DNA of 26,791 bases from a virus (IMGVR_UViG_3300027977_002879:1-26791), one strand, 5' to 3'; counted from the first letter of the stretch, positions 4,314 through 20,984 are shown. Notes: a model not told the origin generated them from the letters alone. Numbers and translations: made by a program.

Positions 4314-5060
4314 TCATACCCAGTTCTGCTCTATCACAGGGTCATGCACATCATGAGGTTTTGGCGACCCGTGGAAAATCAGGATCTTCACACCGGGTAA
4401 CAGCACCGAACCTGCATCAGGACGACGGTACACGCGAGTTTTCATGTCCATGCCCCCATCCTTGATCTGCCAACGCCAGCTCTTGATCAGGCTTTCGTCC
4501 ATGAATTTCAAGTCCTTTTCAGTGAGCACACTGTTCAGAAAGTCCTGATCGCCGTGGAACAATCGGGCCTGGGTTTTCACGTCATTTTGCTGGAACTCTC
4601 GCCAGATCCAGGCAAATCTCGTGGTATCCCACAGCATCACACTGCTGTTCATGCCTTTCCAACTGGGTCGCCACAGATGCCGGAAATCTCTGATGCTCCA
4701 GAAATATCGGGCATCAAGACCTTGCATCCAGTCTATGTTGTCTACGATCACTGTGTCAAGATCAAAATACAGTAGTCTGCCCGACACACGTCCTGGCTCA
4801 AACATCTGCATCTTGTACCACCACGACTTCTTGGGACCGGCTATGCCAGGCCAATCATGCAACACATGCTTGATCATTGGATCAGGCACAGATCTATCCG
4901 GCTCGGTAAAAACATGGAATCTCACTGGACGAGTGCTGTGGCGTTTGACCATGTTGTATAGACGTTCCACATAGCACCAGTCGTATTTGTCGCCATGTAT
5001 CACACAGGCACAATCCACAGTGCCGTTCAATGCAGCCTGTCTCTGAGCCTTTTTAGCCAT
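4314..5060 (-). CDS. DxD glycosyltransferase, GT8-like
   Basis: A 248-residue protein with GT-A features: an N-terminal beta strand at residues 15-23, a helix beginning VERLYNMVKRH (31-41), and a metal/nucleotide-sugar motif in YFDLDTVIVDN (99-109) with Asp100 and Asp102. Downstream SWKGMNSSVMLWD and FHGDQDFLN carry the small-residue and Gly-Asp-Gln patterns common in GT8-type retaining transferases, and the C-terminal IFHGSPKPH supplies the His often seen closing the active site. It should transfer a sugar from a nucleotide donor in the cytoplasm; donor and acceptor are unknown. Its start overlaps the upstream gene by 34 bases, with AAGG five bases before the ATG. It is the last gene of the glycan cluster. 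Confidence 0.8.
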   Translation of the reverse strand: MAKKAQRQAALNGTVDCACVIHGDKYDWCYVERLYNMVKRHSTRPVRFHVFTEPDRSVPDPMIKHVLHDWPGIAGPKKSWWYKMQMFEPGRVSGRLLYFDLDTVIVDNIDWMQGLDARYFWSIRDFRHLWRPSWKGMNSSVMLWDTTRFAWIWREFQQNDVKTQARLFHGDQDFLNSVLTEKDLKFMDESLIKSWRWQIKDGGMDMKTRVYRRPDAGSVLLPGVKILIFHGSPKPHDVHDPVIEQNWV

Positions 5061-5875
5061 AGGCCTTGTGCGATTTCTTCAACTGTGTATTCCGTGTGGC
5101 AGATCTCCACCAGCCACTGCTCTCGATTGATGTCATAGGGTCTTTCGATGTCTTTTATACTTACCGACACTGGATGAGCCAGGCTAGAACTGTCAACAAT
5201 GGGCCGCACACCTTGGATGGCAGATTGTATACCTGGACCCGAATTATAGTTCACCATGGCATGGCAATCAAACTGTAAATCAAATGAGTCATAGGTATCG
5301 GGCACACGCCCGGGCAACTCTACTTCAATGCCCGGTGGCAACTGTGTCACTGCCAGACGGCATCGAGGATGTGGCCTCACCCGTATCTTGCGATCTGTGT
5401 AAGTTCGTATCTGGGCTATCTGCTGTGAGATCCAATCCTCCATGCTTGAAAGATCTTGTACTTGTAAACTGGCAGAATTTTGGGCAGCGATCACGATGTG
5501 TGATCCGGCACGTTGGACCGTGCCCAGATTGACACCCAGTTGTGTAGGGCGATCCCAATCTAGATCCTGCGTGTGACCATAATAGCCCTCAGCGGTGATG
5601 TTGTTGATGGCCACTTTCCATGTGACGCCTCGATGCAGTGATCCTATGTCTATCACGATCACCGGTCGACCCTGATTGCGATAATGCTGATACACCTCGC
5701 GATTCTTTGCCATGCGTCCACTCCACAACACACTCCATATGATCACGGCATCAGCAGTCATGCTGTTTTCTTCAGTACCAATGCCTGCGTGCCGCAGAGA
5801 TTCCAGCAGGGCTGCCATTACGGGTCCACTGTTGCTGGCCGCCTGCAAAGGAAAATAGGCTATGTTTTTGATCAC
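5027..5875 (-). CDS. paralog 1 of a GT-B-like glycosyltransferase family
   Basis: First of six related genes in this cluster. The family shares a C-terminal half resembling the donor-binding domain of GT-B transferases: a strand with basic residues (KIRVRPHPR, about 164-172), then MVNYNSGPGIQSAIQGVRPI with the small-Ser-Gly turn, and a terminal helix in QWLVEICHTEYTVEEIAQG. The N-terminal half has an ID-G motif (VIVIDIGSL, about 92-100). The start is GTG at 5873-5875 with AGGG seven bases upstream. It diverges from the next gene by only 11 bases and overlaps the downstream GT8-like gene by 34. Activity is inferred from fold-like pattern and neighbours; no member is recognised as characterised. 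Confidence 0.75.
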   Translation of the reverse strand: MIKNIAYFPLQAASNSGPVMAALLESLRHAGIGTEENSMTADAVIIWSVLWSGRMAKNREVYQHYRNQGRPVIVIDIGSLHRGVTWKVAINNITAEGYYGHTQDLDWDRPTQLGVNLGTVQRAGSHIVIAAQNSASLQVQDLSSMEDWISQQIAQIRTYTDRKIRVRPHPRCRLAVTQLPPGIEVELPGRVPDTYDSFDLQFDCHAMVNYNSGPGIQSAIQGVRPIVDSSSLAHPVSVSIKDIERPYDINREQWLVEICHTEYTVEEIAQGLWLKRLRDRLH

Positions 5876-5881
5876 TAAATA
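5875..5881 (+). promoter_or_regulatory. late promoter-like CTAAATA for the plus-strand pair
   Basis: CTAAATA resembles the late promoter core used by T4-like phages of cyanobacteria. It ends five bases before the GTG start at 5887 and overlaps the divergent gene's start. Transcription would begin at or next to the start codon, and no Shine-Dalgarno sequence is present, so a leaderless message is implied. The same spacing occurs at 12369-12376. Confidence 0.5.
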
Positions 5882-5886
5882 TCCCT

Positions 5887-6705
5887 GTGAAATACACAGT
5901 AATTACCACATTCAATCAGGCAGGCCTAGATACCTATGGTCAGCGGATGATCGATACCTTTGAACGATTCTGGCCCGAAGATGTGGATCTCCTGGTATGT
6001 GCGGAAAATTGCCAACCTCGGGTCAACCGATCAAATGTGCGTGTAGTGGATCTCTTGGCTAACAGTCCTGCCTTGCGTGATTTTATTCAACGCCATGAAA
6101 ACAATGACCTCGCACATGGTCGTGCAGGACCGCCGGACGTGTTCAATCCTAAAAAACAATTCCGCTGGAATGCCGTGCGATTCTGCTACAAGGTATTTGC
6201 CACTGCAGCTTGCACTGAACAAACACCCAATGGATGGTTGATCTGGATCGATGCCGATACCCATACCCATAGCACTGTCACACTGGACTGGTTGAACGCA
6301 GTTTGTCCCCGAGATTCCATGGCAAGTTATCTGGGGCGTGGAGAACGATATCACAGCGAATGCGGATGGGTTGCATACAATCTAGATCATCCTGCCACGC
6401 GAGACTTTGTACGAGACTTCGTAGGCATGTACATGGACGACAGCATTTTCAACGAGCGAGAATGGCACGACAGTTATATCTGGGATGTGATCCGCAAAAG
6501 ATATCAGACCCAACATCGATTCTATAATCTCAATCCTTCTGTGGATGACAAAGGTCTGGCTGGACACCCATTCATAAATTCTGAACTGGGTCGAGTCATG
6601 GATCACGTCAAAGGCAAACGCAAGAACCAAGGACATTCAAAGGCCAAGGAAGTTGTGCTGCATCACGATGTGCCTTATTGGCAACAAGTATTGAAAGGCC
6701 TATAG
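5887..6705 (+). CDS. glycosyltransferase-like protein with DxD motif
   Basis: A 272-residue protein with GT-A-like organisation. The N-terminal strand YTVITTFNQ (3-10) opens a nucleotide-sugar fold, and LIWIDADTHTH (118-128) places Asp122 and Asp124 at the end of a hydrophobic strand, as in DxD transferases. A conserved-looking GWVAYNL segment and HDSYIWDVI follow. The C-terminus is basic (HVKGKRKNQGHSKAKE). It starts with GTG, without a ribosome binding site, right after a late promoter-like CTAAATA. It is one of only two plus-strand genes and its stop touches the next ATG with no gap, so the pair forms an operon. The acceptor could be protein, lipid or DNA; the sequence does not say. Confidence 0.72.
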   Translation: MKYTVITTFNQAGLDTYGQRMIDTFERFWPEDVDLLVCAENCQPRVNRSNVRVVDLLANSPALRDFIQRHENNDLAHGRAGPPDVFNPKKQFRWNAVRFCYKVFATAACTEQTPNGWLIWIDADTHTHSTVTLDWLNAVCPRDSMASYLGRGERYHSECGWVAYNLDHPATRDFVRDFVGMYMDDSIFNEREWHDSYIWDVIRKRYQTQHRFYNLNPSVDDKGLAGHPFINSELGRVMDHVKGKRKNQGHSKAKEVVLHHDVPYWQQVLKGL

Positions 6706-7353
6706 ATGTATCAAGCACACGGTTGGTGGTTTCCGGATCAAGATACACACTTTGCCGGCATGCTGAAAAAAAGCATACAAAAAGGCGGCGGTCCAGTGTA
6801 TCAACAATCAGTTCGACAACAAAGCATTGACCTTACACCCAGTCGAACACTAGCATTGGACATAGGAGCCAATGTGGGACTATGGAGCAGAGATCTTGCT
6901 AAAGCATTTGCTCATGTGATATCCTTTGAACCAGTGAGTGATTTCCGAGATTGTTTGGTGAAAAATGTTCCCGCATCTAATCTAGAAGTACGAGGTTGTG
7001 CGTTGGGAGAAGAAGACACTTTCATCAACATGATCATCACGGCCGAAAACACCGGACATAGTCATGTAGATACCTCTACCGTGGGACAAGGAAGCACACC
7101 CATGTATAGATTAGACAGCCTTGAACTTCCCAAAATTGACTACATCAAGATCGACTGTGAAGGCTATGAAAACACCATACTGCGTGGTGCCCAAAAAACC
7201 ATCATGCGAGATCGGCCTGTCATGGTAGTGGAACACAAACGCCACAAAGATGTTGGCCATGATGATGTTGATCAAGCACTGGATACCCTGATCAGTTGGG
7301 GTGCCCACATCATCATCAATGTTCGTAACGATTACATCCTGGGCTGGCGTTAA
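6706..7353 (+). CDS. FkbM-family SAM-dependent methyltransferase
   Basis: A 215-residue methyltransferase of the FkbM type, a family that O-methylates sugars and other hydroxyls. Motif I LDIGANVGLWS is at 51-61, the acidic SAM-ribose contact is in SFEPVSDF (73-80), and the hallmark DYIKIDCEGYE lies at about 144-154, followed by LRGA. The start ATG directly follows the stop of the upstream transferase. The end overlaps the stop of the convergent minus-strand gene by 4 bases (shared TTAA at 7350-7353), leaving no room for a terminator. Probable role: methyl capping of a sugar added by the partner transferase. The family assignment is firm; the substrate is unknown. Confidence 0.88.
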   Translation: MYQAHGWWFPDQDTHFAGMLKKSIQKGGGPVYQQSVRQQSIDLTPSRTLALDIGANVGLWSRDLAKAFAHVISFEPVSDFRDCLVKNVPASNLEVRGCALGEEDTFINMIITAENTGHSHVDTSTVGQGSTPMYRLDSLELPKIDYIKIDCEGYENTILRGAQKTIMRDRPVMVVEHKRHKDVGHDDVDQALDTLISWGAHIIINVRNDYILGWR

Positions 7354-8249
7354 AAAAAAGACTGGAATTTCCGCACTATCAGGCCCTGCTCACTCTGTTG
7401 ATCAGTCCAGTGTGCGGCACTGAGATCCCACAACCACTGTTGCCGATCTGGCATGTGAGGTGATTCGATACTGTCAAGGTCGTGTCCGGCCACAGACCAG
7501 GCCACACAGTCTGGATCCTGGGCGATCACAGGAACCCCGGCCAAGATGCTGGCCACACAAGAACTGGAATTGAAAAACACTGATGCCCATGCACCGCGAA
7601 TGTCATCCTGCAGACTGCTACCTGGCATGCTGTGACGCACATCGGGCAATGCGAGCAAATGACCAAGATCCACAGGTGCCTTGGGGTGAGAACGGATCAA
7701 GATAGGACGTTGTGTGATCCTACGTAGATGTGTAACAGTTTCTGTGGCCCACTGTGCCATGTCTATGCCTTTCATGCTCCAACCACCATCTCGCTGCAGG
7801 CACACCAAGATATGCTGACCGGATTGTCTCCATGGCAGCATGGTCAGACTCAAGGTGCGAGATATCTGGTTCCAGTGGTCGGCATCACCGTTTTGATTAG
7901 CATAGTTGTTGGTGTTGTAGTACACACCATCTAAACTGTATCTCAAGAACACGCTGTGAGCATCAGCAAACTTGAAACAACTGCCATCTATGCTCATGAT
8001 CTTGTTGCCGGATCGTGCTTGCTGATCGATCACGTCTTGACGGAGCTGTATGTGAGGACCACGTATGCTGGCACCTACCCATCCTAGAATCACTGCCAGG
8101 CGTGCGGGGACCACTTGCCTTTGATCTTGCACCAGGGCTTTGAGTCCCTGTGATTCTGCACCTTTTGCAAAAGATTTCAGCACTTGAACCTTGCGGTTGC
8201 GATCGGCAATGCGTGGCAAACTGCTGAGATACACCACTACATCATGCAT
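7350..8249 (-). CDS. paralog 2 of the GT-B-like family
   Basis: Second member of the six-gene family, 299 residues. The shared C-terminal half shows PILIRSHPKAP (basic donor-side strand), ASVFFNSSSCVASILAGVPVI (Ser-rich turn then Gly-Val-Pro) and the closing QWLWDLSAAHWTDQQSEQG. The central ID-G motif appears as IMSIDGSCF. It is the most divergent copy at the tail, where the usual Gln-Phe-Thr is His-Trp-Thr. The start ATG overlaps the upstream paralog's stop by 8 bases. The stop overlaps that of the convergent FkbM gene. A cytoplasmic glycosyltransferase role is inferred. Confidence 0.72.
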   Translation of the reverse strand: MHDVVVYLSSLPRIADRNRKVQVLKSFAKGAESQGLKALVQDQRQVVPARLAVILGWVGASIRGPHIQLRQDVIDQQARSGNKIMSIDGSCFKFADAHSVFLRYSLDGVYYNTNNYANQNGDADHWNQISRTLSLTMLPWRQSGQHILVCLQRDGGWSMKGIDMAQWATETVTHLRRITQRPILIRSHPKAPVDLGHLLALPDVRHSMPGSSLQDDIRGAWASVFFNSSSCVASILAGVPVIAQDPDCVAWSVAGHDLDSIESPHMPDRQQWLWDLSAAHWTDQQSEQGLIVRKFQSFF

Positions 8250-9357
8250 TGTGGTATCGCCGAAGGATGGTGGCTGCTGTGCCGTCGTGGAGTTCTTTCA
8301 CTGTGAACTGATTATAACTCAAAGCACACAACCAATCTCCCAAGCATCCACGGTATAAGTCGTTGATCATGGCGAGTTGATTCCTAGATACTGGATTGGT
8401 GATGTGCCGGTTCAACGTTATCACTGGCACACCCGACCATATGGCCTCTACAGCAGCAGCACTGGAGTCGCTGATCACGCAGTACCATCGATCGGGCTCC
8501 TCCTGCAGTCTCTCATACACTGTGTGTCGAGTTTTCCTATCATTTTCTTTGGGTTTAAACACTATGCGTCGACCGGTATGACCTTGCAGTCCATCGGTTA
8601 TGTGTTGTCGGAATGCTTCTGCCGTGGTCCCCCACATGCGATAATGCGATTCGCTACTGAGCACTACCAGGATGTCTCTGCCAGGTTCACGCCAGGGCTC
8701 GGGCATGCTGGGCAGCAATTTCAAACGGTCGGCGGGATATATCTTGGTCACTGCATAAGGCCTGGTATGGACGTGATCTCGGACCACTCGATGCCAGACT
8801 TTTTTCTTTTCAAGGAAGTTGGTATATCCGCTGTCCACAAAATAAAAAGGCAGATCTTGGCTGATCTTCTGTGACAGGATTTCTTCGTTGCGTATCACGT
8901 TTCTGATCACAGCCGGTGCCTGAATGATTTCCGGATGCTGGATCAGTAGATCCGGATGCTGGCATACCAATTCTGCTGCAGGCAAGAGATCTCGACCTAG
9001 AGATTTTACTGCACTGGGTGCAGAATTTTGCTTGGCCAGCAGGGCAAGATGATCTGTATCAAAACCAAATCTGTCAAAATTTTCTACCAGCCAGTTCACT
9101 GTTTTGCGATAGTTTTTCTTGTAAAAATCCAGCACCTCGGCGGTGAATTGTTCCACATCTTGATTGATGTAGTTGTTGACCATGTTGAAATCCACGGTCA
9201 ACAAGCCTCGCTTGGCCAAAGTTTTTTTGCACTTGGTCATGTATCGATCAGTGTGTGTCCACAACGGGCGAGACTGGCGGAAATAACGAAACAGCAAAGT
9301 CCGGGCCAATGGCTCGGCTATCTCATCTCGATTCAACAGGATATATGCATCAGCCAT
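8242..9357 (-). CDS. paralog 3 of the GT-B-like family, longest copy
   Basis: Third family member. I place the start at 9357 (371 residues) rather than at an in-frame ATG at 9438: GGAAG lies about 8 bases before 9357 and the resulting overlap with the upstream stop is 8 bases instead of 89. Residues 1 to about 160 form a helical N-terminal extension, rich in Asn, Lys and Asp, not seen in the other copies. The rest follows the family: FYFVDSGYTNF, WHRVVRDHVHTRPY, RRIVFKPKEN, YCVISDSSAAAVEAIWSGVP and the tail WLCALSYNQFTVKELHDG. The extension may bind a different acceptor or partner. Function is inferred from family and context. Confidence 0.75.
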   Translation of the reverse strand: MADAYILLNRDEIAEPLARTLLFRYFRQSRPLWTHTDRYMTKCKKTLAKRGLLTVDFNMVNNYINQDVEQFTAEVLDFYKKNYRKTVNWLVENFDRFGFDTDHLALLAKQNSAPSAVKSLGRDLLPAAELVCQHPDLLIQHPEIIQAPAVIRNVIRNEEILSQKISQDLPFYFVDSGYTNFLEKKKVWHRVVRDHVHTRPYAVTKIYPADRLKLLPSMPEPWREPGRDILVVLSSESHYRMWGTTAEAFRQHITDGLQGHTGRRIVFKPKENDRKTRHTVYERLQEEPDRWYCVISDSSAAAVEAIWSGVPVITLNRHITNPVSRNQLAMINDLYRGCLGDWLCALSYNQFTVKELHDGTAATILRRYHNA

Positions 9358-10108
9358 TGATGATCTTCCAGCAGGTACCCTGTTGCATTTCTCTCTTGGT
9401 AAATTGGCCATAACTGAGATGCCGAAGCCAGGCTTCAACTAGATCTGGATCCAGATCTGCGAGACTGTCAATGTCCTCAATTCGGCCTGATACCTGTAAT
9501 GCAGCACTGGGACCAAGGCTCACCACTGGGATGCCATGCTGTGCAGATTGTACCAGACAGTTGCTGGTCCAGGCCACCACGGCATGCACATCCTCACAGA
9601 TGAAATCTTCAAAGCGGTCGTGATATTGTCTGGTATAGCGGCTGCCTGGTCTCTGTCTTATCTCGATGGGTCGATCTGTGTGCTGACGAATCAGTGCTAG
9701 TGTGGATTCTAACCAGTGCTCGCTGTCGCCCAATTGCCATGCTTCGCACACTTTGGGATGGGTAGGCACCACCACTATGCGACGGCCTCGGCGGAACTGG
9801 GTACGATCCAGACGTAGCCTCTTGAGCCTGTCATTGGGTCTGGATTGTATGGGTTGGCTGTTCTGATACTCGTTGCGAGTCACACGCCACCAGTCTTTGT
9901 AGCTCTTTCTGTTTCCAAAATATCCAGTATCTATGCAGTACCAATCAACACCTTGTTGGCGAGCACAGTTTGGTACGATGCGTTTGGTTATCCCGGCCAC
10001 AGCCAAGGGCATGGTGGTGTTGGCGATGATCTCTTCTGCAGTGGCCATGCGACCTCCCAGGGGTTGCAGAAAATACTGTACGATGTCGCCTTTGCCGTAG
10101 CCTAACAT
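9350..10108 (-). CDS. paralog 4 of the GT-B-like family
   Basis: Fourth member, 252 residues from the ATG at 10108, which lies four bases after the upstream stop. A GTG at 10147 would lengthen it but overlaps the upstream gene by 35 bases and lacks a ribosome binding site. Family landmarks: WYCIDTGYFGN, WWRVTRNEY, the strand RQHTDRPIEIRQRPG, AVVAWTSNCLVQSAQHGIPVV and the tail WLRHLSYGQFTKREMQQGT. The closest relative is the next gene upstream: both carry RQHTDRPI and WLRHLSY, and DNA identity is visible in places (9411-9445 against 10174-10208), so the two are a recent tandem duplication. Glycosyltransferase activity is inferred. Confidence 0.75.
   Translation of the reverse strand: MLGYGKGDIVQYFLQPLGGRMATAEEIIANTTMPLAVAGITKRIVPNCARQQGVDWYCIDTGYFGNRKSYKDWWRVTRNEYQNSQPIQSRPNDRLKRLRLDRTQFRRGRRIVVVPTHPKVCEAWQLGDSEHWLESTLALIRQHTDRPIEIRQRPGSRYTRQYHDRFEDFICEDVHAVVAWTSNCLVQSAQHGIPVVSLGPSAALQVSGRIEDIDSLADLDPDLVEAWLRHLSYGQFTKREMQQGTCWKIING
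9411..9445. repeat. direct repeat between paralogs 4 and 5 (copy at 10174-10208)
   Basis: 35 bases match 10174-10208 with four mismatches. Both copies encode the tail motif region of the family (around WLRHLSY) in the same strand and frame, so they are remnants of tandem gene duplication rather than a mobile element. The repeat could still support recombination that deletes or adds a gene copy. Confidence 0.75.
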
Positions 10109-10112
10109 GATG

Positions 10113-10916
10113 TCACTCGTTGAGTATCCGCCAGGCCGTGCCGTCACTCATTTCAGTGAATGTGAATTGGCTGTAACTGAGATGTCGCAGCCAGGCTTCA
10201 CGTAGATCATCATCAGGGAACTTGGGATTTTCAATCTCTGCGAGATCAGTGCTGGATACTGTGGCCGCTGCGTTGGGTCCAAGACAGATGGCCGGCACCC
10301 CTTGCATGACAGCTTCCACAGCAGCCACTGAGTTGTATGTGACCAAGCAATGCACATCATCGGCCAGAGCCTGTTCTATAGTGTCCGTGGCGAATCTTTC
10401 CCAACGAGCCTTTTTTTCTCTGATAACAATGGGTCGGTCTGTGTGTTGTCGGATCGCGGCCATGGTTTCGTTCACCCAGTTCTGTTGATCTATATCCCAG
10501 ATAGTAAAACTTTTAGGGCTGGGTGGTGCCAGCAATATTTTGCTGCCCTGTCGCCGTGGCAAGGTATAGTATTGCGTCCTCGACAATCGCTCTGCATCGC
10601 GATCTATCAAGGGTCTCACATCATGCACATGATCTTTGATGATGCGGAACCAAGTCTTGGTATATTGATTGCCAAAGTATCCATTGTCCACATAGTAGAA
10701 AGTCCTGTTCGCAGCTATCATGTGTTTGATAGCATTGCGGAAAGTGAGGCCACGCACGATCACAGGATTTGTCAGACTGTGGGCTTCTTCCCAACTGACC
10801 AAGGTGCCATTGCTGCCTTGTGCTAAACGATCAACAAAGGCCGACTGGCGAGCCTTGATGCCATCGTTGATGCCCTGGCGATTGATACACAACACTGTGT
10901 CTGGAGTTAGGCTCAT
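10113..10916 (-). CDS. paralog 5 of the GT-B-like family
   Basis: Fifth member, 267 residues. An in-frame ATG exists at 11006, but the start at 10916 is preferred: it makes the ATGA overlap seen throughout this operon and avoids a 94-base overlap. It has the cleanest family signatures: FYYVDNGYFGNQY, WFRIIKDHVHDVRPL, RQHTDRPIVIREKK, CLVTYNSVAAVEAVMQGVP and the tail WLRHLSYSQFTFTEMSDGTA. The last part suits a helix packing back on the donor domain. It is the nearest relative of paralog 4 and lies directly upstream of it. The role is inferred as a cytoplasmic sugar transferase; substrate unknown. Confidence 0.77.
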   Translation of the reverse strand: MSLTPDTVLCINRQGINDGIKARQSAFVDRLAQGSNGTLVSWEEAHSLTNPVIVRGLTFRNAIKHMIAANRTFYYVDNGYFGNQYTKTWFRIIKDHVHDVRPLIDRDAERLSRTQYYTLPRRQGSKILLAPPSPKSFTIWDIDQQNWVNETMAAIRQHTDRPIVIREKKARWERFATDTIEQALADDVHCLVTYNSVAAVEAVMQGVPAICLGPNAAATVSSTDLAEIENPKFPDDDLREAWLRHLSYSQFTFTEMSDGTAWRILNE

Positions 10917-11599
10917 TGGTTTGTGCGTTGTTCGCAGTGCTGTGTGAGGTTGTGTTCGCTGTGCCATTCCGCAGCCTGCGTGGTATCGGCGAACTCGTGG
11001 AAGCACGGAGTGCCTAGGGTGTAGTGCAACAATTTGGCTTCGGTGTTTTCGCCCAGTTCATCGGGCAGCCAGTTCCATTCTGGGGGCAAGGCCTGTATGC
11101 GATCGTCATCGATCCAGGCGAATCTGTGCAGGAAACTGCCAGGCTGTTTCTGCACGAAGTCGGGAGTGAGCCTGCGGTTGGGAAAAGATTGGCAATCCCA
11201 CACTATGACCGATGACCAATTCTTCCTGGGATAGTCTTCGTTGGGAGCACCCATGTACTTCACGGGCATGCGTGTTTTGTAATCGTGTTTGACCACGGCC
11301 ACATCATGTGCAGTCTGCAAAGATTCATAGAGTTCGATGATGTCTCCACGCACCACCATGTCTCCGTCGATGAATATGGCACGGCCTCGGAAATCCATGA
11401 GATATGGAACCAGGAAACGTGTGTACACAAAATGATTTGAGTTGTCGCCGTGTGTTTCTTTGTAGTCCGTGAACAGATTCAAAGCCACGGGTATGATGGC
11501 CACTGGTGCGGAGGCATTGCGGATGATCGAGTTTGCACACACATGATAGGCTATGGCTTCTCTGGGATCATAGCCAACGAACACAGGAATGGGTTTCAT
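10913..11599 (-). CDS. GT8-like glycosyltransferase with DGD motif
   Basis: A 228-residue GT-A-type transferase. The opening PVFVGYDPREAIAYHVCANS (4-23) and FVYTRFLVPYL (57-67) are typical of a phage and bacterial GT8-like group, and AIFIDGDMVVRGD (74-86) supplies the DxD residues Asp78 and Asp80. WSSVIVWDCQSF carries the acceptor-side pattern, and LLHYTLGTPCF near the C-terminus has the closing His. It is expected to be metal-dependent and retaining, moving a sugar from a nucleotide donor. ATGA overlaps join it to the cytidylyltransferase-cupin gene upstream and to paralog 5 downstream, so supply of activated sugar and its transfer are translated together. Confidence 0.85.
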   Translation of the reverse strand: MKPIPVFVGYDPREAIAYHVCANSIIRNASAPVAIIPVALNLFTDYKETHGDNSNHFVYTRFLVPYLMDFRGRAIFIDGDMVVRGDIIELYESLQTAHDVAVVKHDYKTRMPVKYMGAPNEDYPRKNWSSVIVWDCQSFPNRRLTPDFVQKQPGSFLHRFAWIDDDRIQALPPEWNWLPDELGENTEAKLLHYTLGTPCFHEFADTTQAAEWHSEHNLTQHCEQRTNQ

Positions 11600-12368: not shown

Positions 12369-12376
12369 TATTTATA
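12369..12376 (-). promoter_or_regulatory. consensus T4 late promoter (TATAAATA) inside the cluster
   Basis: A perfect minus-strand TATAAATA lies in the only real gap (33 bases) between paralog 6 and the cytidylyltransferase-cupin gene. Only five bases separate it from the ATG at 12363, so a transcript started from it would be leaderless. It would drive genes from 12363 down to 7350 late in infection, independently of the upstream operon. Confidence 0.7.
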
Positions 12377-13808: not shown

Positions 13809-15121
13809 TTCTTTGTCTTTCTTTTGGTCACATGGAATCCCAGTTTCTCACCTTGATGATAGGGCCATTTGCGTGAGGTGAGATAATGATCAAGGCAGCT
13901 TTTATATCGAGAATTTTTCAAGTGGGCAGTGAGCCACAGGAACTCCTGCACCAGGTCTCGATCCAGGAAAGGATATCTGGTTTCTATGCCATAGTGTCCG
14001 GCCACGTATTCTTCCTTGTTGAGATACTGTATCTGCGTGCCGTCCCAGAAACTGTGCCAGGGAAAAAAGCCCTGCAAATCTTCAGGGAACATACCACCAA
14101 ATCCACTGTGCTTGAATATCTTGCGACCAGCAAATCCATAATCACTAATGATCTCGTCCGCACCTTGTCCGGAGAAATACACGCGACGCTGTTCCTGCCG
14201 AGCCCGGCGACAGATGCTGGCCAAGCCTAAACTGGCCTGATCCTGTTTGATATCGTAGCGACGGCGACCATCATCATATATGAAATCCTCGCAGGATTTG
14301 AGATCTTGTTGGCTCTGTTCTACATCTGATGCTGTCATTTCATAGGCTTCTGTTTGCTTCAATCGACCCAGTCTCTCCGACAGCACTGTCATGTTTTCAT
14401 TGTTGACGATGCTGTAGGCCTTGAATTCTACGGCCTGGCGATCAAGTTCGCAGGCGATGGCACCGGAATCATAGCCCGAACTCATGCCCACGAACATGCC
14501 GTGTTGTGTGTTTCGGGTGCGTTTGCTGATGCTGCGTTCAAAGGCCTCTGCCCAGGCATCAAACGAAGTGCGATGCTGGCGTAGATCAAATTCATGATTA
14601 GTCACTTGCTGTGTCTGTGCCAGCGTATCAAGATCGAACATCATGGTGGTGTTGGCAGCGAGTTTGCGGGCATGACTCAAGCCCAGGCCTTGTACCTGGC
14701 TTTGATATGAGGCCACACACCAGGTGCCGGCTTGCATGGCGTACCACAGAGGTTTGCAGGCAAAGGTATCAGTGGCCATGACGATGCGACGCTGCCGAAA
14801 ATCCACAATGCAGATAGCAAATTCACCGTCGAGGTGCCGAGCGAAATCTGTTCCGTAATGGTTGTATACATCTAGGATGCATTCTCCATCACTGGCATAC
14901 AGGCCAAATTCTTGATAGTTATAAATTTCACCGTTGAACACGCACACCACGTCGCCGTGCTCTATAGGCTGTGGTCGTATGTTGCCAGTGATGTGCAAGA
15001 GATTGTGCAGGAAAGTGATGCCGTGCCTGGTTTCTACTGTGGTCATGTCTGGACCACGACGCTGACACGATTCATTGACATCGGCCACACCGGGCAAATT
15101 GGTCACTCCAAATCCACACAT
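13805..15121 (-). CDS. AsnB-like glutamine amidotransferase
   Basis: This 438-residue protein has an N-terminal Ntn glutaminase with Cys2 after the initiator Met (MCGFGV), CVFNGEIYNYQEF (about 84-96) and LDGEFAI, followed by a synthetase domain whose pyrophosphate loop reads GMSSGYDSGA and whose later motif is SGQGADEI. In the AsnB family the first domain releases ammonia from glutamine and the second adenylates a carboxylate. The length is well below E. coli AsnB (about 550), and the usual ARDRxGxKPL is altered to ATDTFACKPL, so the substrate may not be aspartate. Homologues in O-antigen clusters (WbpS/WbmE-like) amidate uronic acids; the UDP-glucose dehydrogenase-like gene nearby supports that inference. 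The ATG follows the upstream stop by one base. Confidence 0.88.
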   Translation of the reverse strand: MCGFGVTNLPGVADVNESCQRRGPDMTTVETRHGITFLHNLLHITGNIRPQPIEHGDVVCVFNGEIYNYQEFGLYASDGECILDVYNHYGTDFARHLDGEFAICIVDFRQRRIVMATDTFACKPLWYAMQAGTWCVASYQSQVQGLGLSHARKLAANTTMMFDLDTLAQTQQVTNHEFDLRQHRTSFDAWAEAFERSISKRTRNTQHGMFVGMSSGYDSGAIACELDRQAVEFKAYSIVNNENMTVLSERLGRLKQTEAYEMTASDVEQSQQDLKSCEDFIYDDGRRRYDIKQDQASLGLASICRRARQEQRRVYFSGQGADEIISDYGFAGRKIFKHSGFGGMFPEDLQGFFPWHSFWDGTQIQYLNKEEYVAGHYGIETRYPFLDRDLVQEFLWLTAHLKNSRYKSCLDHYLTSRKWPYHQGEKLGFHVTKRKTKK

Positions 15122-15122
15122 G

Positions 15123-15704
15123 TCAATCCTTCACAAACAACATTCCGGTATCTTTAATATGATGTGCCTTTGTTGAGGAAGCTATCCGTTTTATTTCTTG
15201 CGAATCTGCAGATAATTCTCTATATCCTCTGTCAGCCAGATGAGCGATCCAGTACGAGGTGAGCTGGCAGTTAACATGATGATGTCCTTCCTGCCCAGGC
15301 AACCCGTGTGTCATAAAAAGATATGTTCCTGAACAAATAGTATCTAGTAGATTATCGAGGTATCGTTCGTCTACGTGCTCAACTACCTCTATGCAATTTA
15401 CTAAATCTACTGTTTTATGATAGGAATTTTCGGTTAAATCACATAGCACAGTTGGATATACAGCATTTTTTACATTGTCGTCAAGACCATCAACTGCTGT
15501 GGTTTGCAAACCATGGTCTGAGAACCACTTCGCTGCATGCCCTCTTCCAGAGCCAACATCCATCACAGATTGAATATTGTATTTTTCAACAATATAATTC
15601 CACACTGCCGGACAATAAGTGCTGGGATTTACTTCTATAAAATTGCCGCCCAGATGTGGTTTGCTTGGATCTAGTGCTTCGGTGTATTTTTTCTTTTTTC
15701 CCAT
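15123..15704 (-). CDS. class I SAM-dependent methyltransferase
   Basis: A 193-residue Rossmann-type methyltransferase. Motif I is VMDVGSGRGHAAKWF (about 47-61), the acidic strand end is TAVDGLDDN, motif IV sits in LVNCIEVVEHVDE, and LPGQEGHHHVNC follows in the loop near the active site. The layout matches the Methyltransf_11/23 group that methylates small molecules, lipids or sugars. The N-terminus is strongly basic (MGKKKKY). This gene begins the AT-rich block, marking a composition change from the amidotransferase downstream of it. It starts two bases after the upstream stop. The substrate is not recognised; sugar methylation is inferred from the neighbourhood. Confidence 0.8.
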   Translation of the reverse strand: MGKKKKYTEALDPSKPHLGGNFIEVNPSTYCPAVWNYIVEKYNIQSVMDVGSGRGHAAKWFSDHGLQTTAVDGLDDNVKNAVYPTVLCDLTENSYHKTVDLVNCIEVVEHVDERYLDNLLDTICSGTYLFMTHGLPGQEGHHHVNCQLTSYWIAHLADRGYRELSADSQEIKRIASSTKAHHIKDTGMLFVKD

Positions 15705-15706: not shown

Positions 15707-16417
15707 TTACCCAGTTTTTGTAATTATAAGAGACGAATCATCACCGTCTTGGAATTGATATGAATCTTTTTCCACTGAACCGAAAAATTCATCCACTGCG
15801 GATTTCTGGCCTTTCCAATAATGATAATCATCGATGATGATGATACCGCCAATTGATACCAACCCATAAAACTTTTCCAACTCAATCTTTGTAGATTCAT
15901 ACCAATCGGTATCCAATCTCATGAGAGAAATTTTTTCGGGTATGTTTTCTTTGTGTTGGAGAGTATCTTCAACCTTGCCAACTATGAGATTGGTATAATT
16001 TTTGTATTCGGTCGAAATCAAATTTAAAGTAGACTCAACCACGTCTATGGTAGCTTTACACCAGTCAGCACAACCCGTTTGGTCGTTTTTGGTATTTTCA
16101 AACTCTAAAATAGCAGATTCATTTTTTGTGCTTACGTCTTTTTCCGTTGGTTCCGACATTCCTTGGAAGGTATCATAGACCCAGAGTTTTTTATCAAGGT
16201 GGTGTGCAACAATATAGTCTAACATCAGTGCAGCCAATCCTCCTCTATATGTGCCGCACTCTACAAAGTCTCCTTCAATATTTTTGGAAAAAATATAAGA
16301 TAGGTGTGCGTCTAACTCTTGTATCTTGCCTTTGGTAGTCATAGTGTTACGCCTGACGACTTTGTTCAAATCTTGTCTGCGTTTATCTGCTAAATTTTCC
16401 AATGATTTTTTATCCAT
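15707..16417 (-). CDS. TylF/MycF-family O-methyltransferase
   Basis: A 236-residue member of the TylF family, whose characterised members (macrocin and mycinamicin O-methyltransferases) methylate a deoxysugar hydroxyl using SAM and a divalent metal. Landmarks: GDFVECGTYRGG (49-60) for SAM binding, WVYDTFQGMSEP (79-90), LMRLDTDWYESTK (165-177) and GGIIIIDDYHYWKG (190-203), containing the acidic metal ligands (Asp169 or Asp171, Asp196, Asp197). The length is usual for the family. The start at 16417 has AGGAG eight bases upstream, so the 28-base overlap with the preceding glycosyltransferase is probably real. Most likely it methylates a sugar on the glycan made by this cluster. Confidence 0.88.
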   Translation of the reverse strand: MDKKSLENLADKRRQDLNKVVRRNTMTTKGKIQELDAHLSYIFSKNIEGDFVECGTYRGGLAALMLDYIVAHHLDKKLWVYDTFQGMSEPTEKDVSTKNESAILEFENTKNDQTGCADWCKATIDVVESTLNLISTEYKNYTNLIVGKVEDTLQHKENIPEKISLMRLDTDWYESTKIELEKFYGLVSIGGIIIIDDYHYWKGQKSAVDEFFGSVEKDSYQFQDGDDSSLIITKTG

Positions 16418-17097
16418 TCTGTATGCTCCTTTGCCAGTGATGGATCGCTTTTTCCGGGAAACAAGATTATCTTTGCGTCGGCGGGCAAAACATCATAAAA
16501 TTGTTTGAAATCATACACACCATCTTGGTTTGTAAAAACATCTTGATTTTCCCCTAAAACGTATTGTATCCATGCTTGATCTGATCCCACGTATCCATGA
16601 TTTTTCCTCAAATCGTCCAGAATCGCTGGAGATTCTGTTTGATTGAACTCCTCCCAAACTTGGGTCCTGCTTCCTGTTACCAATGACAATAACCCTCCGT
16701 TGTATTTTTGTTTTTGATTGTTAGGACGAAATTCATTTATGATAAAATCTTCTTCTCGTGATAATATGCTATCGATGTTGCCGGTTATGACACAATCCAA
16801 ATCTATGCATACTAATTTCTCTCCAAATAAATCTCTGGCTTCTTTGGAAAATATCCACAATCTATTGTAGCATCCTCCAAGATGATTATAAATGTCCCAC
16901 AAAGGAATAATTTTTATGTCGGCGTCTATGCCTTCAGGATCATCTGTGACGCAAATAGGAGTGAAAGATATGCTGGTATTTCTCTTTATAGACCTAAACA
17001 AAATATTCACATGCTCCGGCCCATACTGCACTTTGGTTTTCAGTTTGTATCCTTGCGTGCTTTTTTTCCATTTGAATGTGACTATGCTTAAATTCAT
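16390..17097 (-). CDS. DxD glycosyltransferase in the AT-rich block
   Basis: A 235-residue GT-A-like transferase. LVCIDLDCVITGNI (95-108) carries Asp99 and Asp101, preceded by CYNRLWIFSKEA and followed by YNGGLLSLVTG and YVGSDQAWIQY, a pattern shared with the GT8-like gene at 4314-5060 (YFDLDTVI, NSSVMLW, GDQDFL). The C-terminal IILFPGKSDPS matches IFHGSPKPH of that gene, although the His is replaced by Pro. The two may be distant homologues with different base composition, this one being AT-rich. It overlaps its upstream methyltransferase by ATGA. Donor and acceptor are unknown. Confidence 0.8.
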   Translation of the reverse strand: MNLSIVTFKWKKSTQGYKLKTKVQYGPEHVNILFRSIKRNTSISFTPICVTDDPEGIDADIKIIPLWDIYNHLGGCYNRLWIFSKEARDLFGEKLVCIDLDCVITGNIDSILSREEDFIINEFRPNNQKQKYNGGLLSLVTGSRTQVWEEFNQTESPAILDDLRKNHGYVGSDQAWIQYVLGENQDVFTNQDGVYDFKQFYDVLPADAKIILFPGKSDPSLAKEHTEWIKNHWKI

Positions 17098-17945
17098 GAT
17101 TTCTGCAGAACAGCTGTAAAATTACCGCCGCCCTTTTTATCCTCGAAAAAAAGAACATCAAAGTTATATTTGTTTTTAAGCCACCCAAACAACACCTCAG
17201 GATCACATACCTCATAAGGCAGTCCTGCCAACCAGTCGAGAGAATCATGAAATTTGTTCATTCCTCGGCCTTTTTTGACTTTAAACATTTTTTGCCCGCA
17301 TCTATTGTATAACATATCCACCTTGGTTTGATTGTCTGCGAACTTAAATTGATATTTTTCGTCGAGTTCTCTTGATAATGTTGGGCCGCTTCTGTACAAG
17401 GCAACATGGAACAATCCACCGGGTTTGACAGTTAAAACGCTTTTCCTAACAGCATCCCACATGTTTCCTGTGTGATGAAGCACACCCCAAGAGTAAACTA
17501 TGTCATGAGATTCTTGGGCAGCTATGGAATCATCTAAATCAAATATATTGCACTGGTGAACAGTCCAGTCAATTTCGTTGCCTTGCCAAAACTTATCTTT
17601 TGTGTACTGTGTGGCTTGTACCGAGTATGGATCTATATCTAAACTCGTAATCTTAGAGCATCCTAATCTTGCGAAAGACAAAGACGAAAGTCCCGACCCG
17701 CAGCCAACATCAAAAACTGATTTGCCTGACAAATCTATTCCTATGCGATTATACAGTTCTTTGAGATTGTTGTGATGAAACCCAATGATTTCCTCATTCA
17801 TTCTTTTTTGAACAAAATCCAACCAATTAAATCCAAATGAGAATTCACCATCATTTCTAACCTGCACTCCGTCTTCAGTCATGTTGGTAAGAAATTGCCT
17901 GAATTGCTCTATGGTGATCGTGCTTGACGTATTTTCTTGTTGCAT
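17094..17945 (-). CDS. SAM-dependent methyltransferase (Methyltransf_11/23-like)
   Basis: The start is set at 17945 (283 residues): AGGA lies six bases upstream, whereas the longer frame from 17999 overlaps the preceding gene by 41 bases. Motif I VFDVGCGSGLSSLSFARLG and the following TSLDIDPYSV are textbook, and motif IV appears as DIVYSWGVLHHTG with GGLFHVALY after it. A C-terminal domain of about 110 residues, with basic KVKKGRGMNKFHD, follows the methyltransferase core and may bind the substrate. Related domains occur in ubiquinone/biotin-type and sugar methyltransferases. It is part of the AT-rich block, linked by ATGA to the downstream glycosyltransferase. Confidence 0.83.
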   Translation of the reverse strand: MQQENTSSTITIEQFRQFLTNMTEDGVQVRNDGEFSFGFNWLDFVQKRMNEEIIGFHHNNLKELYNRIGIDLSGKSVFDVGCGSGLSSLSFARLGCSKITSLDIDPYSVQATQYTKDKFWQGNEIDWTVHQCNIFDLDDSIAAQESHDIVYSWGVLHHTGNMWDAVRKSVLTVKPGGLFHVALYRSGPTLSRELDEKYQFKFADNQTKVDMLYNRCGQKMFKVKKGRGMNKFHDSLDWLAGLPYEVCDPEVLFGWLKNKYNFDVLFFEDKKGGGNFTAVLQKS

Positions 17946-17958
17946 GCTATTTCCTAAA

Positions 17959-18537
17959 TTATACGAATGCAGCCAATATATTAGCCGGCCGGGCTGCATC
18001 TAAAAACTCAAATTTATAATTTGAATTAATTTCTAAGATTTTGTTTTTGACTTGGTCCAATGTGATTTTATCATGTTTTGGCCTTCCAAAACAATTCAAA
18101 TCGTCGATTAAAAGTGTGTGATTTTTGATGAAATGATATTTGATCATTTCTAATTCTTCCAGGATAGGACAGTTTTTCGCTAATTTTGTTCCGTATTGAG
18201 AACTTACATGTGCATCTAACCAAAATGTAGCAGTGTTAGTTAATTCATGGATTACCTTCTCTAGCAATTTTTCTGAATCTCCTAAATAAGAAATCACTCG
18301 ATTTTGTTTGATTTCACTGGCAAATCTTATTTGCACTTTTTCGTATAAATGTGGATGTATCTCTATTGTGTAGCATTTTTCAAAACCGGCTTGCAAGGCA
18401 CATTGCAAACCGTTGCCTAAAAACGTTCCTGACTCAACAAATATCTTATTATTAAATTTTTTAAGATGACTTAATAAATTATCATAATAGATTTTTACAT
18501 CGCCCTGGAAATTTTCTGTTTGTTCCCAGGGATTCAT
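17959..18537 (-). CDS. methyltransferase-like Rossmann protein
   Basis: A 192-residue protein whose FVESGTFLGNG (about 33-43) resembles motif I of TylF/FkbM-type methyltransferases, with TIEIHPHLYEKV as the ribose-binding strand end and TFWLDAHVSSQYG and LLIDDLNCFG giving further acidic strand ends. The DDLN pair could be a metal site, as in TylF. The fit is weaker than for its neighbours because the Gly-rich loop is not canonical. It is one of the most AT-rich genes here. ATGA overlap with the fusion gene upstream suggests co-translation. Sugar O-methylation is a reasonable guess; a non-enzymatic SAM-binding role cannot be excluded. Confidence 0.65.
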   Translation of the reverse strand: MNPWEQTENFQGDVKIYYDNLLSHLKKFNNKIFVESGTFLGNGLQCALQAGFEKCYTIEIHPHLYEKVQIRFASEIKQNRVISYLGDSEKLLEKVIHELTNTATFWLDAHVSSQYGTKLAKNCPILEELEMIKYHFIKNHTLLIDDLNCFGRPKHDKITLDQVKNKILEINSNYKFEFLDAARPANILAAFV

Positions 18538-20171
18538 TTTGGATTTTCCCCAACATCTGAATCATTATGATCGAAATCAAGTTCTGTACTGTGTATCATA
18601 GAATAAATTTTAGCCCAGGATAAAAAAGAACTGCTGGTTTTTTTGATGCTGATATTTGTTCTTGACAATATTAATAAATCTACAAAAGCTTCTACAACCG
18701 ATTGTCTGGATCTTTTAACATTGTATGAAAATTCTCTACCTTGGTTATCGGTTATAGGAGTGGTCCATTCACCATCAACAAGTTTTTCCACATAACTTGT
18801 CTTGGGATAAATTTTTACATTACTTAACTGCTTTAGTTTTTCTTCGGTGTATTTGTCGTCGGAACAGATAAAGTAATCAGTGTCTTTATCTTCTATGATT
18901 GATAAAAAGATTTGATCACTATCTAATTGTTTTTTATGATCAGTTTTCCTGATATGGATCCCTTTTGTTTTCGTGCTAATGGCATGCTTTGTACAAAACA
19001 ATTCAACTGTTGATAATATATGCGGTAGGATTTTCAAAGTTATTAATTTTTTTACTATGGCATCTTGTGAGAAATAATCCGGAAGTTTGTTATGGAAATA
19101 CACAATATCTTGTGTCATATCTCGGATGCAGTTCAAGGATTCCAATGAATGTTCGAAAGTGTGCCTTGGCACTGTTGTTGTTTGATTGTCGTGAATAAGA
19201 TAAATTTTTCCATCATCTAAGATCAAGTCAGTGATTCCTTTGTCCATAGTTTGCAAATTTGAAACAAACAGATCTTCAAAGGAACATCCGCACCAATTAT
19301 TTATTGGCCAACAAATCACTGGCACACACCCAATCTGTTCTGCAGCCACTAATCCACCTATCAAACTATTGAATCTATTACCCAATCCACCGTCGGCAAG
19401 GATGTACATTTTGCGGACAGAATCTGTCAGAGATCGGTTATAACTCAAAAGATCCCGTGTGGCTCTGGGATCTAGGCCTGTGCTTTCAGCCCAGGCAGCC
19501 CAGGCGTACACATCCTTGGGCAGGCATTTGGAGTTGGCACCTCGATGTTCCGGATACACAAAGGTCCACCAGAGGTTCATCCGGGGATCGTCACCATACA
19601 CAGCATCTCTGATGGTGTAGTAATCCACACCGGCTGCCTTGCAGGCATCGTAGAGCTCCTGGCATTGTAGCACTTTCCAGAAGATGGCACGATTTTCTGT
19701 GAGTTTGATGATTTCTGCTTCGAGATTGGTCACTTGCCTGATAGTGACATTGGCATTGTACACAGTGGCATAGCAATCTATGACTTTACGACGATCTTGG
19801 GGATCACCGCCCAGGATCATGAACTGTCGTTCTTTCATGGCCAGCATGGGATGGTTGGGCGATTCGCCCAGATATTCGGGCTGTACTACGATGCGTTTGT
19901 TGTATTTCTCGGCCATGGCATCAGCAAAGCCCGGCTGCGTGGCAGATCTCAACACAATCAACGATGATAAACAAGAGGCAATGGCTGCTTCTACCGCGGA
20001 GCAATCCAAGTGTTCACCATCCCAAGGTGTGGGCACTGCCAAGAACACTATGTCACATTCAGGCAGAGGATCTTGGTACTGCTCTATATTGATATCATGG
20101 ATGGCTGCGTCGGGGAACAACAAATGGGTGGCTCGGCCCACCCAACCATATCCTACGATTCCTACTTTCAT
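18534..20171 (-). CDS. fusion: UDP-glucose dehydrogenase-like domain plus fucosyltransferase (NodZ)-like domain
   Basis: A 545-residue chimera. Residues 1-250 resemble the NAD-binding and central domains of UDP-sugar dehydrogenases: GIVGYGWVG (4-12), AVPTPWDGEHLD (45-56), Lys156 and Asn160 in IIKLTENRA, and the catalytic-type Cys216 in SKCLPKD. The usual C-terminal UDP-binding domain is missing. From residue 256 a second domain begins with MYILADGGLGNRFNSLIGG and later shows GIHIRKTDH (404-412) and SSSFLSWAKIYS, as in NodZ/alpha-1,6-fucosyltransferase-like GT-B proteins. DNA composition shifts from GC-richer to clearly AT-richer near 19410, at the domain border. A CAGGATC sequence lies about 10 bases before the ATG. 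It could oxidise a sugar nucleotide and also transfer a sugar, or the dehydrogenase may be a remnant. Confidence 0.82.
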   Translation of the reverse strand: MKVGIVGYGWVGRATHLLFPDAAIHDINIEQYQDPLPECDIVFLAVPTPWDGEHLDCSAVEAAIASCLSSLIVLRSATQPGFADAMAEKYNKRIVVQPEYLGESPNHPMLAMKERQFMILGGDPQDRRKVIDCYATVYNANVTIRQVTNLEAEIIKLTENRAIFWKVLQCQELYDACKAAGVDYYTIRDAVYGDDPRMNLWWTFVYPEHRGANSKCLPKDVYAWAAWAESTGLDPRATRDLLSYNRSLTDSVRKMYILADGGLGNRFNSLIGGLVAAEQIGCVPVICWPINNWCGCSFEDLFVSNLQTMDKGITDLILDDGKIYLIHDNQTTTVPRHTFEHSLESLNCIRDMTQDIVYFHNKLPDYFSQDAIVKKLITLKILPHILSTVELFCTKHAISTKTKGIHIRKTDHKKQLDSDQIFLSIIEDKDTDYFICSDDKYTEEKLKQLSNVKIYPKTSYVEKLVDGEWTTPITDNQGREFSYNVKRSRQSVVEAFVDLLILSRTNISIKKTSSSFLSWAKIYSMIHSTELDFDHNDSDVGENPK

Positions 20172-20182
20172 TGCGATTGATC

Positions 20183-20212
20183 CTGGACTTTGTATGACAG
20201 TAGTTAGTCCAG
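20183..20212. repeat. 7-bp inverted repeat upstream of the fusion gene
   Basis: CTGGACT (20183-20189) and AGTCCAG (20206-20212) pair around a 16-base loop within the 48-base gap between the methyltransferase stop at 20220 and the fusion-gene ATG at 20171. No T run follows on either strand, so termination is unlikely. It could modulate translation of the fusion gene, whose ribosome binding region partly overlaps the arm nearer the ATG. Confidence 0.4.
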
Positions 20213-20219
20213 ATCACTA

Positions 20220-20984
20220 TCAGTGTTTTGCGAAACTCTGCAGACTGCGATCCAGCCAAGGCAGCACCAAATCTCGCTGGCGTAGATAACCATGCCGTCG
20301 CACACTGGCCGCAGCAGATTCCGGCAACAAGCCTTGATCAGCTAGATCATACCATCGAGTAGTGCGTGGCTCCAGGGGTGCCTGCTGGCCTTTGTACACC
20401 GCGGCGTGCAACCATGGATCTTCGGGATTTTTGCGGAAAAACCCGCCAGCACAATCCCAGCCCGATACGGCCAACACATGTATGAGATTGGTCATGGTCC
20501 AGTGCCAATAGCAACCATCTCGCTGGTCAAACGCCTGTGAGTTGAACTCCATGTTGGTGGTCTGGGGCAGGATCAACACCAGCATGCCCGAATCAGAGGT
20601 CGCATCACGCCATTGTCTCAGCGTGGTAAAAGGATCGATCACATACTGGAATGCGTCGTGGCACCATATCATGTCATAACGACGTTTGTGTATGATGATA
20701 GGCTGTTCAAAATCCTGTGGTTGGTATTGTATGTTTTTGTAACGATGTGCCATGGGCAAAGATGCTGGTTGATCTATGCCGGTACACCGGATGTTTAAAG
20801 GTCGCGGTGTTTCATCTCTGGTGGTGCGTGTGGCCCACCATTCTAGATCCAGCCCTGAACCGCAGCCCATGTCTGCCAAGGTACCAATGCTTTCCATGAA
20901 ATCGTCAAATTCATAGAAAGTTTCCAAAGTCCGCCGGCTGTGAGTATGACTGGCTTCAGGGCTGGCAAATACAGTAGACATCAT
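20220..20984 (-). CDS. SAM-dependent methyltransferase, GC-richer copy
   Basis: The start is placed at 20984 (254 residues), giving ATGA overlap with the upstream stop; a longer frame from 21077 would overlap by 97 bases and adds a His/Arg-rich leader unlike a real N-terminus. Motif I is LADMGCGSGLDLEWW, the acidic contact is in TGIDQPA, and motif IV is DMIWCHDAFQYVIDP followed by SGMLVLILPQTTN. The C-terminal ~70 residues (RRHGYLRQRDLVLPW) are probably substrate-recognising. It belongs to the class that methylates small molecules. It sits at the border between recombination genes (uvsX side) and the glycan cluster, so it may be the first gene of the latter. Confidence 0.78.
   Translation of the reverse strand: MMSTVFASPEASHTHSRRTLETFYEFDDFMESIGTLADMGCGSGLDLEWWATRTTRDETPRPLNIRCTGIDQPASLPMAHRYKNIQYQPQDFEQPIIIHKRRYDMIWCHDAFQYVIDPFTTLRQWRDATSDSGMLVLILPQTTNMEFNSQAFDQRDGCYWHWTMTNLIHVLAVSGWDCAGGFFRKNPEDPWLHAAVYKGQQAPLEPRTTRWYDLADQGLLPESAAASVRRHGYLRQRDLVLPWLDRSLQSFAKH

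Follow-up and report, generated by a model that had tools for sequence, protein, structure and literature searches.

Why does a T4-related bacteriophage carry a long run of carbohydrate-active genes among its recombination genes, and what does the product of these genes decorate? The question is raised by IMGVR_UViG_3300027977_002879:1-26791, the complete IMG/VR record of 26,791 bases (hereafter the window, the whole stretch of DNA analyzed), which is a fragment of the genome of an uncultivated jumbo T4-related aquatic phage. The locus comprises 20 cassette genes, from position 4314 to the uvsY stop codon at 20981, plus one further gene, g4, placed before a gene for an AAA protein. Our analysis suggests that it is a late, soluble, modular and rapidly exchanged glycan-assembly cassette that most likely decorates a virion protein, a reading to which we assign a probability of about 0.48.

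The cassette is bordered upstream by the recombination mediator gene uvsY (20981..21439; phrog_231, 2e-12; here and below, features lie on the minus strand unless stated otherwise) and downstream by the AAA protein gene g3 (2456..3475; phrog_1250, 3e-90), beyond which lies the helicase gene uvsW (46..1515; phrog_16, 2e-73). The distance between uvsY and uvsW amounts to 19.5 kb in the window, compared with 0.94 kb in phage CBB and 0.97 kb in Vibrio phage 2.275.O. We gathered 183 loci by scanning viral contigs with uvsX, g14 and g17, and the cassette sits between uvsY and phrog_1250/uvsW in all loci showing both borders. The search of related genomes advocated in a preliminary description of this DNA thus recovered the cluster in the same slot, as a hypervariable cassette beyond what that description could see. 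In three relatives whose UvsX is 86–89% identical (L040, L051 and L058), g24 is the sole cassette gene retained between uvsY and phrog_1250, and in three others (L059, L149 and L159) the slot is reduced to g24–g14–g4. Further relatives harbor a slot of 8–16 kb, some of them with the g14–g13–GT-B block inverted, and g14–g13–GT-B–g7–g6–g5 recur together in tens of loci. The uvsY–uvsW slot is the cassette site, a fixed place with near-empty and differently filled versions. Two relatives (L169 and L176) also possess a second set of glycan genes downstream of uvsW, composed of g16–g18, g22 and g23 homologues.

The contents of the slot turn over rapidly. Among 25 complete slots, with gene families defined at 50% identity, the mean Jaccard index of shared families is 0.34–0.43 at a UvsX identity of 85–95% and drops to 0.11–0.18 at 70–85%. 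The 608 open reading frames found in the slots of 60 loci fall into 192 families, 112 of which are singletons. One relative (L186) shares 88.3% DNA identity with the window across uvsX–uvsY–g24, up to position 20166 at the border between g24 and g23, past which a single patch of 74% identity is detected (14844–15584). The sharp end of this match at the cassette edge indicates, in our view, that close relatives have exchanged one cassette for another. The host source of the cassette could not be named, since one genome scan with g14 yielded just two full-length bacterial relatives, each 45% identical. These two nucleotidylyltransferase–cupin fusions (L193 and L194) belong to a SAR86 single-cell genome, in which the gene lies within a surface-polysaccharide locus, and to a marine metagenome-assembled genome.

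The cassette is tightly packed, as originally described, with a coding density of 99.4% over 4314–20984 and many four-base overlaps of the ATGA type. Five of its genes encode DxD glycosyltransferases, in agreement with the preliminary description: g5 (4314..5060, motif FDLDT; phrog_1962, 9e-23), g20 (16390..17097, CIDLDC; phrog_1962, 2e-14), the GT8-type g13 (10913..11599, FIDGDM; Pfam Glyco_transf_8, 2e-6), g16 (13179..13808, WLDADA; Nucleotid_trans, 1e-7, and GT34, 6e-7) and g7 (5887..6705, plus strand, WIDADT), which has no family match and is recognized by its motif and by 33% identity to Mosig_00189 of Pelagibacter phage Mosig (3e-36). The presence of an AsnB-like amidotransferase, a cytidylyltransferase–cupin and a dehydrogenase/fucosyltransferase-like fusion was likewise borne out by profile scans and by a cyanophage homologue. 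The first of these, g17 (13805..15121; GATase_7, 3e-19; Asn_synthase, 4e-12; TIGR01536, 8e-40), is a glutamine amidotransferase and possible uronamide former. The second, g14 (11596..12363; Pfam), is a nucleotidylyltransferase of the HldE-C/cytidylyltransferase type fused to a mannose-6-phosphate-isomerase-type cupin and is the cassette gene that recurs most, with 576 relatives in viral contigs. The third, g23 (18534..20171; Pfam, 1e-9; TIGR03026, 2e-22), joins the N-terminal and central domains of a UDP-glucose/GDP-mannose dehydrogenase to a fucosyltransferase-like C-terminal half, which is 30% identical, over 93% of its length, to a cyanophage S-SCSM1 protein annotated 'fucosyltransferase'.

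Five of the six genes previously described as methyltransferase-like are assigned by family: the FkbM methyltransferase g8 (6706..7353, plus strand; Pfam Methyltransf_21, 1e-16; TIGR01444, 5e-23), the class I methyltransferases g18 (15123..15704; Methyltransf_23, 4e-8) and g21 (17094..17999; Methyltransf_11, 3e-12), the TylF/NovP-type sugar O-methyltransferase g19 (15707..16417; TylF, 1e-28; PDB NovP, 1e-16) and g24 (20220..21077; Pfam Methyltransf_12/11). The sixth, g22 (17959..18537, G+C content 32%), has no family match and is methyltransferase-like by motif only. The G+C content is 31–40% over g18–g22, which are the rarest cassette genes and occur in few relatives, compared with about 50% for most neighbors. 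Several of the mechanically called start codons are probably too far upstream; the true start of g12 probably lies near 10916. No membrane segment was found in the cassette proteins (highest 19-residue hydropathy mean, 1.72), and profile scans of the window detected no flippase or transporter, polymerase or ligase family in the cassette, which therefore lacks the complement of an O-antigen or capsule locus. Assembly and capping of a glycan by a soluble set of enzymes is well supported by the gene families, the predicted fold and the gene neighbors. The earlier proposal that the cluster suffices for a complex oligosaccharide is plausible as regards assembly and capping and is qualified by the missing export and polymerization genes and by sugar donors that would come largely from the host.

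The remaining transferase genes, g6 (5027..5875), g9 (7350..8249), g10 (8242..9438, with an N-terminal extension), g11 (9350..10147), g12 (10113..11006) and g15 (12397..13182), had been described as six GT-B-like paralogues. An all-against-all comparison established that they are true paralogues (best pair g11–g12, 7.6e-50), and Pfam returned weak matches to DUF6716 ('putative glycosyltransferase') alone, for 21 of 56 family members. An AlphaFold2 model of g12 computed from a 56-row alignment (predicted local distance difference test score, pLDDT, of 89.9) is GT-B-like, and its sole strong PDB matches in Foldseek are with the retaining β-linked 3-deoxy-D-manno-octulosonic acid (Kdo) transferase KpsC (6mgb, 3.5e-6; 6mgd, 1.4e-5). 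WbbB (1.2e-3) and KrkA matched more weakly, and the likeness to KpsC and WbbB is distant given template modeling (TM) scores of about 0.4–0.5. Two motifs define the retaining Kdo transferases (PMC12887879, PMC10148158): QxxxD, which contains the nucleophile, and (K/R)xHP, which binds the nucleotide. The former is present in one of the 56 aligned members and the latter in 12, all of them similar to g6 and g9, which form an RxHP-motif branch; the arginine is invariant in all 56. We did not file the family under the Kdo transferases, and an assignment to GT99, GT107 or GT140 was rejected on the near-absence of QxxxD. The cassette family thus resembles KpsC (GT107), WbbB (GT99) and KrkA (GT140) in its GT-B fold and differs from them in mostly lacking QxxxD; the model suggests a KpsC-type fold and perhaps a related donor. 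Bacterial members were found in three of 299 Pseudomonadota genomes, in gene contexts that were uninformative.

When would these genes be expressed? The late box of T4 spans positions −13 to −6. An exact T4-late-type box, TATAAATA, is found at 12369..12376, occupying the same interval (−13 to −6) relative to the start codon of g14; if its geometry is that of T4, the g14 transcript may start at the initiation codon itself. A second box, TAAATA, lies 11 nucleotides ahead of the g7 start (5876..5881, plus strand), and a third, GATAAATA, followed by GGAG, lies upstream of g4 (4297..4304). The sequence TAAATA[CT]C begins exactly 11 nucleotides before the start of 59 of 115 g14 homologues. Counting distinct 45-base upstream regions, with expectations derived from shuffling, we found TAAATA in 60 of 79 for g14 (5.1 expected), in 26 of 57 for g7 (3.4 expected) and in 7 of 35 for g8, and it is depleted upstream of core genes (2 of 433, versus 21 expected). 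Two large relatives, of 315 and 223 kb, have TAAATA 9–15 nucleotides before the starts of 42 open reading frames, compared with 4–13 starts for unrelated permutations of its letters and 19–28 for shifted forms of the box. Virion proteins (portal, tail sheath, baseplate wedge, tail spike and head) account for 9 of the 20 TAAATA-bearing proteins scanned and for none of 10 random motif-free proteins (hypergeometric chance about 0.012), and the box was not found before the genes for DNA polymerase, primase, helicase, RNase H, uvsX and uvsW.

Comparable motifs have been reported: ATAAATA ahead of structural genes of CBB and GAP32, where it was taken for a probable late promoter (PMC5259590), and NATAAATA in cyanophages (PMC2984593). 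The boxes on the g14, g7 and g4 families suggest that the cassette would be expressed late, with the virion genes, and since they are common to both gene groups the sugars may coat the particle rather than the DNA. The box may also have a translational role. Boxes that abut the start codon, at about 11 bases, were observed on cassette, portal and other virion genes of relatives (L195–L222), and would yield leaderless transcripts if they act as in T4. A TAAATA inside g4 (start at 4160) was judged a coding coincidence, and matches to sigma-70-type promoters are near chance level in the window.

The gene g4 (3801..4280) encodes a Ser/Thr-rich (20%) protein predicted to fold as a β-sandwich (AlphaFold2, pLDDT 82), a member of a variable family that stands at the distal end of many cassettes and was recovered from 17 relatives. 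Its members are 147–274 residues long and lie directly before phrog_1250, and 13 of 18, including g4, carry a late-type box 22–39 nucleotides upstream, usually with a ribosome-binding site. In the large relatives, the family occurs in the cassette only. Hydropathy reveals no membrane segment in g4, and a search with the L045 member detected no close relative in cultured phages. At E ≤ 0.001 the predicted fold matched nothing in the PDB, and its one viral match, with an uncharacterized protein, was weak; given this lack of an informative match, no function could be derived for g4 from its fold. Composition and position make the g4 family the first candidate glycan acceptor.

We propose that, late in infection, the enzymes would draw mainly on host nucleotide sugars, to which g14 and g23 would add an activated sugar and a uronic acid, and g17 an amide. 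A short oligosaccharide would be assembled in the cytoplasm through stepwise extension by the DxD and KpsC/WbbB-like GT-B transferases, capped by O-methylation and attached to a virion surface protein, the g4 family being the first candidate, thereby providing each phage type with its own sugar coat. The cultured Caulobacter phage CcrPW has its homologues of the GT-B, GT8-like and methyltransferase genes immediately downstream of the tail genes, ahead of the lysozyme gene. We favor a virion protein as acceptor, at about even odds, because late boxes are present, genes for membrane or export proteins are missing, g4 accompanies the cassette and homologues have this tail-gene neighborhood; among the three acceptors envisaged in the preliminary description, the late-type signals and the recurrent Ser/Thr-rich neighbor favor, without proving, virion protein over the host envelope. 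A more specific version, which we hold tentatively, sees here a phage 'serotype' locus, on a par with the O-antigen loci of bacteria and the glycan clusters of giant viruses: late in expression and subject to recombination, the cassette would endow otherwise close jumbo phages with different virion sugar coats and would itself encode a co-varying acceptor, g4.

Several observations weigh against a decorated virion. No virion glycan is on record for the lineage. Several full cassettes lack g4 (L087, L088, L095 and L112, with a gap of about 220–330 bp before g3), so that it cannot be the sole acceptor, and the minimal loci introduced above (L059, L149 and L159) keep g14 and g4 with no recognized transferase in the slot. 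TAAATA also precedes a few non-virion genes (encoding a QueE-like protein, DNA ligase and a phosphoesterase), and g23–g15 are without late boxes and could share a transcript with uvsX–uvsY. The HldE-like, KpsC-like, UDP-glucose dehydrogenase and AsnB kinds of enzyme are typical of cell-envelope glycans.

This chemistry of the lipopolysaccharide (LPS) type, with its HldE-like nucleotidylyltransferase, KpsC/WbbB-like fold, UDP-glucose dehydrogenase and AsnB, is what lends weight to the main rival explanation, which we regard as possible and the less likely of the two: the cassette would remodel the LPS core or O-chain of the host envelope in infected cells, blocking superinfection or the sticking of progeny to debris, with soluble peripheral transferases acting on lipid-linked sugars at the inner membrane face. 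Such a role is the published reading for the LPS islands of pelagimyophages and P-SSM2 (PMC7029224, PMC2984593); g14-type fusions occur in SAR86, there in a surface-polysaccharide locus, and in another marine bacterium; and hypervariability fits the O-chain diversity of hosts. The cassette, however, includes no transporter, polymerase, ligase or membrane protein, its late-type boxes are like those of virion genes, the recurrent Ser/Thr-rich g4 is not exported, and related transferase genes lie within the tail-gene stretch of a Caulobacter phage.

Improbable, in our estimate, is that the genes are morons acquired independently of one another, a mosaic yielding no joint product, as the low G+C content of g18–g22, their rarity among relatives and the quick turnover of gene content would suggest; the co-occurrence of g14–g13–GT-B–g7–g6–g5 in tens of loci and a recognizable g5/g7/g8/g13/GT-B set in the cultured pelagiphage Mosig point instead to a joint product. 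Least probable of all is the proposal that the oligosaccharide hypermodifies phage DNA to evade restriction. T4 and other phages do glycosylate their DNA, the cassette is placed among recombination genes, and a QueE-like protein and weak QueC matches in relatives (L204:19082-19981, G001:123627-123833) hint at 7-deazaguanine chemistry. In this genome, known from 26.8 kb, the question was addressed through 16 large relatives (more than 2 Mb in total, including the 315-kb record), which encode no ThyA-family hydroxymethylase, with ThyX in three of the largest, a combination that argues against T4-style glucosylated DNA. Moreover, Pfam and PHROG scans yielded no match to the T4 α- or β-DNA-glucosyltransferase families in the window, the slot is nearly empty in some relatives, a dozen different transferases exceed the need of known DNA sugars, and late signals would be expected to act once most DNA has been made. 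DNA hypermodification was rejected as the main role on the absence of hydroxymethylase in relatives and on the family scans.

The genes around the cassette place the phage among jumbo T4-related phages. Besides uvsY and uvsW, profiles identify uvsX (21683..22744; phrog_97, 1e-70) and a gp32-type single-stranded DNA-binding protein gene truncated by the end of the record (25948..26790; phrog_1192, 1e-51), which agrees with the T4-like core flanks initially described; the nearest cultured phages are jumbo T4-related phages rather than T4 itself. The best UvsX matches, at 62–69% identity, are with Sinorhizobium phage Phosso, Vibrio phage 2.275.O, Xanthomonas phage XbC2, Agrobacterium phage Atu_ph07, CBB and GAP32. 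UvsX relatedness and the gp32–uvsX–uvsY–uvsW block, also present in CBB and 2.275.O, support membership of the Rak2-like/Atu_ph07 group. The Moraphages, which are jumbo phages from aquatic settings and have four core transferases, were rejected as members of the same lineage, as they are placed outside the T4 group (PMC12619734).

A second small island lies between gp32 and uvsX (22728..25948) and encodes g31, of no recognized family, the twitch-type radical SAM proteins g28 and g30, which are related to each other (NF033640, 8e-73 and 3e-34, respectively), and the SDR/epimerase-like g29 (Pfam Epimerase). Its gene order is kept in many relatives (such as L017, L018, L020, L053 and L059) and the island is missing in others. 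In many relatives (L005, L006, L011, L091 and others), uvsY and the g26 homologue are also separated by an extra radical-SAM-like gene, which shares about 25% identity with g28 and is missing from the window. Between phrog_1250 and uvsW lies g2 (1512–2315), an AT-rich orphan (G+C content 35%) with no family match, whose place is often taken by a different gene, or by none, in relatives.

How does the cassette compare with known systems? T4-related phages of aquatic origin are already known to carry hypervariable LPS-type islands: pelagimyophages have a hypervariable host-recognition cluster and P-SSM2 has 24 LPS genes in two clusters (PMC7029224, PMC2984593). These islands resemble the cassette in being large and variable and in their GT8, rfaE-like, UDP-glucose dehydrogenase and other LPS-type genes. 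The pelagimyophage cluster, however, sits in the structural module (VrlC–gp14) with tail fibers, whereas the cassette occupies uvsY–phrog_1250–uvsW without a tail-fiber gene and differs further in its jumbo lineage, its KpsC-fold GT-B family and its late-type boxes. Virion-glycan clusters are likewise known from giant eukaryotic viruses (mimiviruses, chloroviruses and CroV), which encode clade-specific clusters of transferases, sugar methyltransferases and UDP-glucose dehydrogenase, in some cases also containing Kdo genes (PMC9614988). These viruses differ in their eukaryotic hosts and in that virion glycans are proven for several of them, whereas the cassette is known from its genes; no shared descent has been shown. 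In Mosig, CcrPW and their kin, homologues of the GT-B, GT8-like and methyltransferase genes form small clusters, mostly annotated as hypothetical (L223 and L224), with few genes each, in other positions and with no nucleotidylyltransferase–cupin or AsnB seen. Mycobacteriophages bear glycans on capsid and tail tube, and the account cited in PMC12619734 describes no large hypervariable cassette.

As far as the literature searched shows, the uvsY–uvsW slot with its near-empty and replaced states in a jumbo lineage is new, as are the KpsC-fold GT-B family without QxxxD, the late-type boxes that abut start codons both in the cassette and among virion genes, and the Ser/Thr-rich family found at the same site. 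With the cassette comes a new GT-B family, KpsC-like in fold, in which the known catalytic motif is missing. Surface glycans of their own are proven for giant eukaryotic viruses and, for phages, only in simple form. If our reading is correct, a widespread lineage of aquatic jumbo phages would make and swap surface glycans as bacteria swap O-antigens, which would explain one recurrent use of the 'LPS' genes of environmental phages, usually read as host-modifying. As the same kinds of enzyme occur in cultured Caulobacter and Pelagibacter phages, the long-standing question of the target of phage LPS-type islands becomes testable.

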